Shown here piece by piece: positions 3,663 to 21,603 of a stretch of 64,000 nucleotides of DNA; position 1 is the stretch's first letter, and the number at the start of each line of letters is the position of its first letter. The notes under the pieces are model-generated. The model was not told the DNA's origin, did no database searches, and was given only the letters and a program-made list of their open reading frames with translations. The stretch spans positions 1,013,501 to 1,077,500 of the forward strand of contig JACVTC010000021.1 of NCBI GenBank assembly GCA_016946835.1. The letters are read 5' to 3'. This DNA comes from Neocallimastix lanati (nom. inval.). Taxonomy: Eukaryota; Neocallimastigomycota; Neocallimastigomycetes; Neocallimastigales; Neocallimastigaceae. Position numbers and translations under genes: made by a program.

Positions 3663-4997
3663 GTGCCCACAACGTTCAGGAAAACAATTATTCAACTAAA
3701 CCATGACTCGGAGTACGCAGGACACTTAGGAATTGATAAGACTTCGGACCTAGTATCTAGGAATTTCTACTGGCCGAAGATGAGGAAGGATATATCAGGC
3801 TACGTGAAAGCTTGTAGAACCTGCGCTACCAAGAAGGATGATCGCCATAAAGAATATGGTACTGCGGTAAGAGCTCCGGTTGCAGAATTACCCTGGCAAG
3901 AGGTACAATTGGATTTTATAACTGATCTGCCAGTGAAGAGTAGAGTAAGGACAAATAGTGGTTATGTTTGGGAAACGAAAAGAGCAGGTTGTATCTTAGT
4001 ATGCTGCGATAAATTAACCAAGATGATACACCTGATAGGATTTAAACATGTGCCCAACGCTATCGAGACTGCTGACGCATTCCTAAAGGAAATCTATAGG
4101 TTGCATGGATTCCCTAAGGTGGTTACAACTGATAGAGGAGTGCAATTCACTAGTCAGGTATGGAAGGAGCTACTAGAGTTCTTCGGGACCGAAGTAAACC
4201 ATGCTACCACTAGTCACCATGAGACAGTAGGCCAAGTGGAAAGGAACAATGCCTACGTAGAGACTTATTTACAGTGCTTTGTGGGAACCTACGATGATGA
4301 AAGTTGGATGGACTACTTGTTCTTAGCAGAGTTCTGCTATAACAACGCAATCCATGCTTCTACCCAACAATCTTTCCTCACCTTATATAATTACCAGGTA
4401 CACAACTCCCCTAAGACAGCCGATTTAGTGCACTCGTTAGGCGAAGTTAAAATGATCGATAGCTTTGCCCACAACTTGGGAAACCTAAAGCACATCCTAG
4501 AAATTGCCCAAACAAGATACCTGGATAATATGGATAGGACCCGTACAGATAATTACCCTAGGTACAGGTTGTTAGATAAAGTATGGCTAAAGAAACCTGA
4601 AAATTATGACGCGTTGCCATTCTACAAACTTGCAACAAGAAAATTCGGACCATTCAAGGTAGTTGGTGTCGACGAAGAAAAGAAGAATTACAGATTAGAT
4701 ATAAGTCGTTCACCCTTCCCAAATATGTACCCAGTGTTCCATGTAAGTGATTTGGAACCATTCTACAAATTACCTAAAACATTAGTGCCGGCTCCTGCAG
4801 GAAACCAAAAGATAATCCATATCCTTGGATCAAGGAAACACCAAGGACTCTATCAATACCTGGTTGCGTACCAGAATGATAAACAAGAGTGGGTTAACGC
4901 CGACGTGATCGACGACAATCCTCACTACGCTGAGTTGCTGGAGGATTACCAAGATTTTAGCTATAGCCAGTTCATTGCTAGCGTCGTCAACCATTAG
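3663..4997 (+). CDS. Ty3/gypsy integrase, 5'-truncated pol fragment
   Basis: A 444-codon open frame beginning directly at the LTR edge; the first in-frame ATG is only at 3780 (codon 40), so the natural N-terminus is lost. Zinc-binding HHCC motif: H14, H21, C51, C54. Catalytic triad: D84, D157, E193, with the D-35-E spacing expected of retroviral-type integrases. A C-terminal domain follows (KFGPFKV at about 330; MYPVFHVSDLEPF about 355-375) and a weak chromodomain-like tail (about 382-430). G+C is visibly higher than in the other elements, so it is a distinct family. Protease, RT and RNase H are missing upstream. No internal stop in more than 1.3 kb suggests recent capture or selection; expression is unknown. 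Confidence 0.85.
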   Translation: MPTTFRKTIIQLNHDSEYAGHLGIDKTSDLVSRNFYWPKMRKDISGYVKACRTCATKKDDRHKEYGTAVRAPVAELPWQEVQLDFITDLPVKSRVRTNSGYVWETKRAGCILVCCDKLTKMIHLIGFKHVPNAIETADAFLKEIYRLHGFPKVVTTDRGVQFTSQVWKELLEFFGTEVNHATTSHHETVGQVERNNAYVETYLQCFVGTYDDESWMDYLFLAEFCYNNAIHASTQQSFLTLYNYQVHNSPKTADLVHSLGEVKMIDSFAHNLGNLKHILEIAQTRYLDNMDRTRTDNYPRYRLLDKVWLKKPENYDALPFYKLATRKFGPFKVVGVDEEKKNYRLDISRSPFPNMYPVFHVSDLEPFYKLPKTLVPAPAGNQKIIHILGSRKHQGLYQYLVAYQNDKQEWVNADVIDDNPHYAELLEDYQDFSYSQFIASVVNH

Positions 4998-17731: not shown

Positions 17732-18733
17732 TGTAATAATTTAATTAAAAAATTATAATTAAATTATTAATCATTAATATTAGCTCTAACTGCTAATATT
17801 AAAGGTTTAGAAAAGAATCATACTTACCTATGGTTCTTTCTAATTATTGAGTTTATTATAACGAATTATAATAGACGAAACACTGAAATTGATAAAGAAA
17901 AGTTTTAATTATAAAATTTGTTTTTAAAATAATTTGTTTTATTAATTATTAGAAACTTTAAATGTTAAAACTATTTATTATTATTATTATTATTATATTA
18001 TAATTGTTATAATAATAACTCTTGATTTCTCAAAGAGAACTCAAGAGCCTTATTTATACTTTTTTGTCAAAATAAGGTTAAAATCAAAAGGGGTTCTAAT
18101 CTTAACAAATCTCTTATCTAGGAAAAGACTAGAAGAAAAACCTAGATAAGTTTTTGATCGATATTCTATCCATATCGATCATCGCGTTAATTAAGTAAAA
18201 CCGATTACTTTTAAGAAATAATTGGAAAAACCTTAATTAACCGATTACTTAATCTAATATAATGATCGAAAATGAAAGAATAAAATAATGAAAATTATTT
18301 CGATCATAAAATTTAAAATTTAATCTATTTAGTTCTATTTTATAGAACTTTACATAAAAATATAAAACAATACATTAATAATAAAAATACATCATTAATA
18401 AAATACAGAATACATGATAGAATACAGAATACATGATAAAATACAGAATAGTGTTTTAGTTTATGATTTAATAAGTAAGAGAAAACTAAAACTAATAAAT
18501 TTAATAATTAAGTGAATAATTAAATAAATTTAATATTATTTTAAATGTATAAAAATTATTTAATTAAATAAAATTTTAATATTAAACTAAATAAATTTTT
18601 AATATGTAATTAAATAAATTATTAATTATAATTAAGTGTATAAATGAAATATGAATTAAATAAAAGTTATATTAATTATAACTTAACTAAGAGAATATAA
18701 TTATTTTGTTGAAAATAATTATATTTTCTTACA
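17732..18733 (-). repeat. solo LTR4 copy b
   Basis: Plus-strand ends TGTAATAATT...TTTTCTTACA, 1002 bp. It closely matches the inverted copy at 51870-52852, including the AT-rich tail and the hairpin CTCTTGA...TCAAGAG. Confidence 0.8.
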
Positions 18734-19304
18734 TTTGCTATGATAAGAAACGAAATATTTAATTAATAATTAATATAAATAAAGTTAATAAGAAAAATAA
18801 GAAATAAATATATTATAAATATTAAATAGTTAAATAATTTTATAAATAATTGTTTATAAACATAATTTTAAAATGAAGAATTAGTATAAATAGTTATTAG
18901 AAATAATACTTTAATAAATGTTCCTAATTATCCAGTAAAATTAGTATATAATATTTTAATAAAATTAGAATTAATATTGATTAATTTTATATTTTGATTA
19001 TTAGAATTATGTTATAAAATAATTGTATTAAAGGTTTACTAATTACCTATAAATATTAGAATATTAATAAAACAATATTTTATTTAAAAATGAATTAAAT
19101 ATTTTAAGTGTTATTATTTAAATATATAAAGACTTGTTATGGACAAGTATAAAAATTGTCACGAATACTAGTTGATTTGAAGTTAAAATTCACTATTAGA
19201 TCAATTGAAATTTAATTTAGTTATTGACAAAAATTATTTTAATTCGATTTAATTATAAAAATAAATATTAGAAACATTAAATAATTAGAAACCAAAGGGT
19301 TTGT

Positions 19305-19658
19305 TTAAACTTTAAGTTTTGGTTGACCAATTTCATCGACAAGAATGGCCTCAACTCCCTCATCCTTATGCTTTTCATCTCTGGCCCAACAATAGTCGAT
19401 ATTCTGCTGGGCAGATCCATAACATTTTTCAATGTGAGCCCCGTGTAGCTTTCTTCTTGCAATATATTTAGATTGGTTATATTACACAAACATATGGTAA
19501 TGCTTGTTACTACTTCCAACGTGTTCAGTTACCAACATATACGCAAATTCACTTAATTTTAAAAAATACTGTTTTATATCTTCATAAAATTCCAAACTGG
19601 CTTCATTTATTGTTAAAATAAAAGCAGTACCAGTATTTCTTCCTTCAGTGTTTACCAT
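19305..19658 (-). pseudogene. Rep-type HUH endonuclease domain, truncated, one in-frame stop
   Basis: From ATG 19658 the frame runs 117 codons to a stop at 19305-19307, interrupted once by TAA at codon 59 (19482-19484). It shows the three rolling-circle motifs in order and at normal spacing: motif I FILTIN (13-18); motif II, the metal-binding HYH (53-55); motif III around the putative nicking Tyr89 in DYCWARD. The usual motif III Lys three residues after Tyr is Ala here. Only the N-terminal endonuclease domain (about one third of a typical Rep) remains, cut off exactly at the left direct repeat; the superfamily 3 helicase is absent. In life the family nicks the origin nonamer and becomes covalently attached through the Tyr. 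This copy cannot be full-length and is almost certainly inactive. It could descend from a virus or a related plasmid. Confidence 0.78.
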
Positions 19659-19680
19659 TCTCAATAAAAAATCTCAAAAA

Positions 19681-19739
19681 AGCAGTCTGTAAAAAAATAA
19701 AAATTTCTCTAATTTTTATTGTAGTATTACCAGACTGCT
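19681..19739 (+). other. rolling-circle origin stem-loop with TAGTATTAC
   Basis: Outer stem AGCAGTCTG (19681-19689) pairs perfectly with CAGACTGCT (19731-19739). The nonamer TAGTATTAC (19722-19730) directly abuts the right arm. In circo-/cyclovirus-type origins this motif is nicked between its seventh and eighth bases. A second, inner perfect hairpin (19696-19705 with 19711-19720, loop TCTCT) enlarges the loop to 41 nt, longer than usual. The origin starts 22 bp upstream of the rep ATG, with the nonamer on the strand opposite rep. Confidence 0.8.
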
Positions 19740-19743
19740 AAAT

Positions 19744-19777
19744 AAGAGATTTTAACTCTTAAGAGATTTTAACTCTT
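19744..19777 (+). promoter_or_regulatory. two tandem iteron-like repeats
   Basis: Two perfect adjacent copies of the 17-bp AAGAGATTTTAACTCTT (19744-19760, 19761-19777). Each has AAGAG/CTCTT arms, so each is itself dyad-symmetric. Their position beside the stem-loop is where CRESS viruses place Rep-recognition iterons. Confidence 0.65.
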
Positions 19778-19784
19778 ATTTATA
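19777..19784 (-). promoter_or_regulatory. TATA box of the rep remnant
   Basis: Minus-strand TATAAATA lies about 120 bp upstream of the rep ATG, with the iterons and origin between. Binding of Rep to the iterons would sit over the start region, the arrangement that gives rep autoregulation in related viruses. Inference. Confidence 0.5.
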
Positions 19785-21051
19785 CTTTTTTGAAATCTTG
19801 AAAAATTTCAAAAAATTTTTGAAAAAAAATGAGGGAAATCGTCAGATACCCGTAATTTTTTTGAAAACAATAGTAAAAATTAATTTAACACAAAATAAAT
19901 TAAATATGAAACATTAAAGAATTAGAAACCAAAGGGTTTGGACTTATTTATTAAAGATAATTTAATTTAATTTAACCCTTAAGAATTTGATAAAAATAAC
20001 ATGAAGAAAAACAACGATAACTCAACAAATAATGGAAATATTATATTGACATTCCTGCTAAAATTATTTTCATTAGAAAGCTACGGTCGAGAACTACAAC
20101 ATATGTTAAAATCAACCTTATTGGATAACTAGATAACGAGATATTGGACTTTAAAGATATTTAAATATAAAAATATAATTTAATTATTTAATTAAGACCC
20201 TAAATTATTAATTAAGAAATTTATATTAGATAAATCTCTTAACTTGGAAATTATATTATTAATTTTTATTATTAATTAAAAATACAGAATTAGTTATTAG
20301 TAATAGTTTTATAATATTTTAAATAAGTTTTATAAGTTTTATATATTTTATTATTATATATTTTTATTCAATTATTTCTAAAAGATTCTAAGGAATTCTT
20401 TATTATTCTAAAGATTTCCGAAAGAGAATTTTTAATTAGTTTTAATATTTTATTTTATTTTATTTTATATTTTATTATTAAATTAGTTTTATTATTAAAT
20501 TGTATTATGAATAAGTTATATAGTTATTTTATTAAAAGATTCTTATCAATATTATTTTATTATTATATTTTATATAGTTTATATACATGTATGAATATAT
20601 TAAGATTAAAATGTATTAATTAATTATATTGTTAATTATTATTTTAGTTTAGTATAAAAAGGATTTGAAATTCCATATTTTGAATTCTTTGTAAGATTAT
20701 TAACTAACTATTAAATTCTAAAATATTAATATAAAGTTAATGAATTAATTATAACAATAAATAATTTTTTATATTAATCTTAGTTAATTTATTATTAAAA
20801 TATATATTAAATAAAGTTCTAATAAAACATAAATTTTAAATATTGAAATCTTAATTATAAAACTCTATGTGTTTTATTTATTATTTAAATTTAATTGATT
20901 GTTATAATTAATAAGAACATCTTGACCTGACCAATTTAACCCAAACTAGGAAAGATATAGCAAGAATCTTACCTAAACACTCAATCGAAATTTTACAAAA
21001 ATCATAATAGTTATGAAATAGGAAACATGATAAATTCCTATTTCATATTAG

Positions 21052-21603
21052 TATAAGAAACTATAATTATTTGTTAAATAATTATAATTTCTTTATTTGA
21101 TTATTTATCTATTATATAATTTATACATTCATTCATTAAATTAATAATTATTTATCAAGTTAATATGTATTTGTACATTTAATTATAGTTTTAATTTAAT
21201 TAAAAATTTTCTTTAAATTTATTTAGTATACATTTATTTTATTTAATTTATTTAATTAATTATAAAATTTATTAATTTCTATAGTAATAAATTAATTATT
21301 TAATTATTATTTTAAATTAAAATTTGAATTAACTTATTCGGACTTTAAAGTTTTTTTTTTATTTTCTTATTAAAATATAAATTAATTTTATCGGACATTA
21401 AGGTTTTTTCTAATTTATTATATTAATAAATTGGTTTTTCCTTAAAGAACTTATCTAGTTTTTTCTTCTAATCTTTTTCTAGATAAGATCATTGTTAAGA
21501 TTAGAAAACCTTTTAAATTATTATTTTATATAAATTTTTATTATTTAATTTTTCGTATAAATAGCTATTGATTTCTCTAAATTTTTGAGAAATCAAGAGT
21601 TAT
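21052..21603 (+). repeat. gypsy B 5' LTR, left part
   Basis: Homologous to 32703-33138. It includes TATAAATA at 21556-21563 and a perfect hairpin TTGATTTCTC/GAGAAATCAA, followed by AAGAGTTAT just before the copia insertion. The first dinucleotide is TA rather than TG, a G-to-A change. Confidence 0.85.

Follow-up and report, generated by a model that had tools for sequence, protein, structure and literature searches.

A truncated rep gene beside a replication origin

The stretch of DNA analysed here, 64,000 nucleotides of the genome of the anaerobic gut fungus Neocallimastix lanati (contig JACVTC010000021.1; hereafter the window), carries on its minus strand the 5' part of a Rep gene, encoding an HUH endonuclease domain (19305..19658), together with an adjacent stem-loop that has the form of a viral replication origin. 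We interpret this feature, with high confidence, as a dead, integrated fragment of a circular Rep-encoding single-stranded DNA (CRESS-DNA) virus, whose host was an ancestor of this Neocallimastix. The fragment covers codons 1 to 117 of a CRESS-virus Rep and is read from an ATG at 19658-19656 to a TAA at 19307-19305, with a single in-frame TAA at 19484-19482 that divides it into two pieces. Piece A (19485..19664, minus strand) contains motif I, FILTIN, and motif II, HYH (in HYHMFV), and piece B (19308..19481, minus strand) contains the motif III Tyr (in NIDYCWARDE) within GSAQQNIDYCWARDEK. Frame reading and homologue searches bear out the order of motifs given in the original prediction, and both His and the Tyr occupy invariant columns in an alignment of 32 chosen Reps. 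The superfamily 3 helicase is missing from this copy, as the insert that contains it stops at 19304, upstream of the helicase part; the claim of a truncation before the helicase with one internal stop is thus correct, and what remains is a fragment and no virus.

The assignment to Rep is made because of relatives, since the Pfam matches of both pieces are below the cut-off and alone not decisive (piece A to REP_ORF2-G2P, E = 0.024; piece B to Viral_Rep, E = 0.057). Gemini_AL1 (PF00799) was not matched by either piece in the Pfam scan, and a search of solved structures gave no match for the two pieces or for the open reading frame of a related copy on contig C15. This C15 relative is itself one of the related Rep copies of the genome, and its matches form a set of 95 Rep homologues, of which piece A matches 83 and piece B 87 at E <= 1e-3 when the two are searched apart; for either piece, the top eight matches have identities of 60-74%.

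The stem-loop lies upstream of rep (19681..19739, plus strand), 22 bp from the Rep ATG, and within a stretch that aligns at 80% with a copy on contig C412. Its arms (19681-19689 and 19731-19739) pair perfectly over 9 bp, and the nonamer TAGTATTAC (19722..19730, plus strand, opposite to Rep) stands immediately 5' of the 3' arm, so the predicted position of an exact nonamer stem-loop relative to the frame holds. The 41-nt loop between the arms is mostly filled by an inner A/T hairpin, and the whole folds as DNA at -13.8 kcal/mol (z = -7.8), a stability equalled by none of 200 shuffles. Adjoining it, a repeat search found two head-to-tail copies of the 17-bp TAAGAGATTTTAACTCT (19743..19776, plus strand), which are possible Rep-binding sites.

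A chance open frame beside a chance stem-loop would be in keeping with the nonamer taken alone, which is uninformative: the window has two occurrences where 1.22 are expected, and at least two were seen in 30 of 100 shuffles, which is background frequency. However, a simulation of 24 Mb yielded 470 nonamers, only two of them with an abutting 9-bp stem, and the strong Rep relatives of the frame (E = 2.2e-47 and 7e-29) already refute this explanation, whose probability we regard as negligible. The original prediction had named two observations that would count against it, a frame without Rep-family matches and a nonamer stem-loop at background frequency; the relatives are there, the stem-loop is far rarer than the nonamer, and the judgement that the two parts are unlikely to co-occur by chance stands. 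Its further statement that motifs and origin together define CRESS replication is supported in substance, although "define" is slightly strong for a copy without a helicase whose family call comes through relatives.

Insertion into a host LTR

The viral fragment interrupts a host retrotransposon long terminal repeat (LTR; TGTCAC...TTTACA) at 19157..20997 on the plus strand. Complete copies of this repeat are about 1.22 kb long, start with TGTCAC and finish with TTTACA or similar. We read the repeat as an LTR. In the window it is taken to be solo, since AAAAT immediately adjoins each of its ends (19152-19156 and 20998-21002); an exact 5-bp duplication was also present in five of the seven complete copies compared by eye (L005, L012, L014, L020, L027), and the other two, L009 and L028, show none as cut. 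The right flank of the insert (19897-19990) has at least 38 other matches in the genome, 28 of which were fetched and aligned, and all 28 are uninterrupted at the insert site. The 604-bp insert absent from them (19304..19907, assigned to neither strand) is bordered by the two copies of a 33-bp target-site duplication (19271..19303 and 19908..19940, plus strand) with one mismatch (19282 T vs 19919 G). The uninterrupted copies and the 33-bp duplication together indicate that the LTR inserted first and that the viral fragment was captured afterwards. The part of the insert beyond the origin, 19740-19907, is presumably viral, judging from its position. Joining at the Rep nick was considered for this insert and rejected, the nonamer lying at neither of its ends.

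Other features of the surroundings are recorded here in their own right. Two inverted repeats of 56 nt (18100-18155 and 21445-21500; 88% complementary) lie 3.3 kb apart with the LTR between them and are perhaps the ends of an older element, and an exact 18-bp match links 18049-18066, left of the LTR, to 19775-19792 in the intergenic part of the insert. Between 441 and 63475 the window has 20 frames of at least 120 aa, mostly Gypsy- or Copia-like retrotransposon genes as judged from their translations; one of the 20 was compared with Pfam and gave no match over the cut-off.

Related copies in the same genome

Genome searches with the natural Reps P0002 and P0036 gave nine related Rep loci, the window included (C15, C744, C224, C335, the C124 window, C124:680k, C412, C699 and C760), with C760 distant at 29-32% identity. 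Pieces A and B, searched separately, recovered copies on C412, C15, C124 (680 kb) and C744, and on C224 at E = 0.255. A matching Cap-like gene is present at three loci and stands beside Rep at two of them, C124:680k and C744, on the strand opposite to rep. The search for copies with a helicase elsewhere in the genome, which had been proposed as a check, returned broken copies, some of them with helicase and Cap-like parts. When the insert was used as a DNA query, the best other copy was 80% identical over query positions 96-453, and none of the candidates scored (40 of 335) was nearly identical to the Rep-origin part.

To compare the window with C412, we counted differences by codon position over 19425-19664, leaving out a gap near 19405-19424. 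The two differ at 8 of 80 first, 8 of 79 second and 30 of 80 third positions, with one gap (third versus first and second positions, P = 1.2e-6), and the noncoding stretch 19665-19742 has 6 differences in 75 positions and seven gap columns. Coding and noncoding stretches thus both look constrained during this divergence. The C412 origin is eroded (TATTATTAC). The excess of third-position changes indicates that the two genes were still functional while they diverged and integrated separately afterwards, a pattern that agrees with related viruses having integrated twice and disagrees with copying of one fossil.

These data bear on the possibility that the insert is a transposon of CRESS-virus descent, domesticated and spread by the Rep that it encodes, like the geminivirus-like elements described in truffle (PMC3198968). 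Several Rep loci in one genome and a duplication on both sides of the insert are what such an element would leave. However, the nine loci vary both in the part of Rep that they cover and in identity, the Rep-origin part has one 80% relative and no near-identical copy with common ends among the candidates scored, Reps are accompanied by Cap-like genes at two loci, and the third-position excess fits virus evolution that preceded insertion. We consider a transposon very unlikely, and retain the reading of an integrated virus fragment.

Several of these loci have features of their own. The C15 frame of 286 aa (L044:3596-4453, minus strand) is identical (100%) to an N. lanati protein; its match to the helicase family is below the cut-off (E = 0.0024), and its Walker A motif reads GPSAIRKS. 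In the Reps of C15 and C744 (L047, about 3846-4055) HYP replaces HYH, with different Pro codons in the two. A Pro at the place of the second His is found in two homologues, both from N. lanati, out of the 89 (of 95 examined) where the pattern could be located, and may reflect either parallel loss of the nuclease or chance. The C124:680k Rep (L046:3611-4622) has a helicase of a different type, with a VEEFR motif and 84% identity to P0067 over 120 aa. This suggests an exchange of helicases among the Reps of the window group. The C744 locus (L047:1699-4696) exceeds one genome unit, with a Rep C-terminus, Cap and Rep in succession and a repeat distance of about 2.67 kb, and at L049:2945-4193 (minus strand) two partial Reps lie head to tail with an intervening space too small for Cap. 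The Rep cluster P0088 (of the C744 type, with the name N. lanati) and the Cap fragment P0194 (N. 'constans') have a longest contig of 940651 bases in both cases, hinting that the C744 insertion is common to N. lanati and N. 'constans'.

A second, distinct CRESS lineage is present in the genome at two Rep loci, C643 and C24. The C643 Rep (L048:3919-4293, minus strand) matches Viral_Rep at E = 5.5e-7 and is followed by a separate downstream helicase frame (PF00910, E = 3.6e-6); an exact TAGTATTAC (L048:4517-4525) lies 223 bp upstream of it in a long imperfect stem (z = -6.4). The C24 Rep (L053:3419-3783) is a decayed relative of the C643 Rep, with stops.

Relatives beyond this genome and their phylogeny

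The 95 matches of the C15 Rep, itself included, were obtained from a protein collection at E <= 0.01. Nine are of NCBI source, and eight of these are named (Neocallimastix lanati, two; Piromyces finnis, five; Piromyces sp. E2, one). For the other 86 the longest contig measures 2.3-3.3 kb in 38 (median 2.76 kb), is shorter in 42 and longer in 6. A profile search with the Cap-like gene gave 99 relatives, and 66 of 91 Cap relatives are on contigs of 2.3-3.3 kb. We also considered pairing Rep and Cap contigs by equal length, and dropped it, as a rough estimate gave about the same number of pairs by chance. Relatives of Rep or Cap occur in Piromyces and Anaeromyces, and Rep or Cap fossils are present in four named fungal genomes besides that of the window. 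No relatives came from IMG/VR, which was scanned with the Reps of C15 and C643 and with the Rep alignment.

The composition of these proteins also bears on a non-viral source, a Rep acquired by the fungus from a rolling-circle plasmid of bacteria or archaea. Plasmids encode HUH Reps that are distantly related to those of CRESS viruses, and REP_ORF2-G2P is matched weakly by piece A and likewise by 7 of 32 Rep relatives. Among the same 32, however, the helicase PF00910 is found in 27 and PF02407 (Viral_Rep) in 17, and Gemini_AL1 in one (E <= 0.01 for PF00910 and Gemini_AL1); the Rep profile matches the PDB entries 9pqq and 7lar, the latter, which we take to be PCV2 Rep, at E = 3e-15; and Cap-like genes adjoin Reps. 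A plasmid origin is therefore highly improbable, and a viral one is preferred. None of 25 Cap-like proteins matches any Pfam family at E <= 0.01, and hence none matches a known circovirus capsid family. Foldseek listed polyomavirus VP1 for a Cap model at TMq 0.08-0.13, and we do not rely on it.

A quick tree was built from 104 rows, with independent placement of pieces A and B. Both group with C412 (support 94, not starred), inside a 33-row clade (support 100, starred) of 14 rows from fungal genomes and 19 others. Pieces of one locus entered this tree as separate rows, and those of C124:680k, C744 and C224 fell apart, so that its count of 11 changes is inflated. In the tree of the 95 Reps the eight fungal-genome rows need five changes, of which at least four are forced by starred branches. 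Support in both trees is from SH-aLRT (a likelihood-ratio branch test) only, and named virus families were left out of both.

The related fragments and the virus-sized contigs suggest that such viruses infect anaerobic gut fungi. It is probable that Neocallimastix, Piromyces and Anaeromyces are infected by a separate, family-level lineage of CRESS-DNA viruses of about 2.7-3.0 kb, whose capsid family has no Pfam entry, and that this lineage still circulates. While the kind of element is known, a gut-fungus CRESS lineage with a non-Pfam Cap seems new.

By analogy with its family, Rep of the living virus would bind beside the stem-loop and use its motif III Tyr to nick the nonamer, starting rolling-circle copying, while its helicase would unwind the DNA. 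The opposite strand would encode the putative Cap that packages the circle, of about 2.7 kb to judge by the C744 locus. A linear piece with the intergenic region and roughly the 5' third of rep may then have been captured at a break in the LTR. The duplication would have arisen when repair filled in the 33-nt stagger of this break.

Relation to known systems and implications

We found no publication on CRESS viruses integrated in anaerobic fungi in the one open-licence library searched, and prior work may exist elsewhere. In the chytrid Batrachochytrium, an endogenous CRESS virus has reportedly been seen. In Entamoeba and Giardia, whole or partial integrations of CRESS Rep and Cap, nested among exogenous viruses, helped to name the hosts (PMC7493932). 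Those elements (Naryaviridae, Nenyaviridae, Vilyaviridae) resemble ours as Rep/Cap integrations in a gut microbe, a likeness of integration pattern, and differ in host, which here is an anaerobic fungus. Endogenous geminivirus-like Reps of ascomycete and basidiomycete genomes (PMC3198968) are likewise virus Rep fragments in fungal nuclear genomes, but they have a geminivirus-like domain and group with SsHADV-1, whereas 17 of 32 relatives of the window Rep match Viral_Rep and one Gemini_AL1. A gemycircularvirus is named in the transcriptome of Pecoramyces ruminantium (PMC9501391) and listed as single-stranded DNA in a review table, where it is the single such entry for the whole phylum of anaerobic fungi (PMC10224137); it shares with our fragment a genome type and an anaerobic gut fungus as source, and differs by its label of gemycircularvirus. 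Gigaspora circovirus A (PMC9501391, PMC10224137) provides a circovirus-like Rep from another fungus, but as Rep only and from transcriptomes, whereas here Rep and a Cap-like gene occur together in a genome.

As a fossil alone, the window fragment belongs to a known kind and is unremarkable within it, and it is the wider pattern of the lineage that raises its interest. Its layering, an LTR and then a viral insert, offers a way of timing past infections, and the fossils in the four further named fungal genomes, together with the virus-sized contigs, make the host assignment testable. If it is true, anaerobic gut fungi, which degrade plant fibre in herbivores, are hosts of a diverse group of single-stranded DNA viruses that lacked known hosts, and this assignment may account for part of the CRESS diversity that has none.
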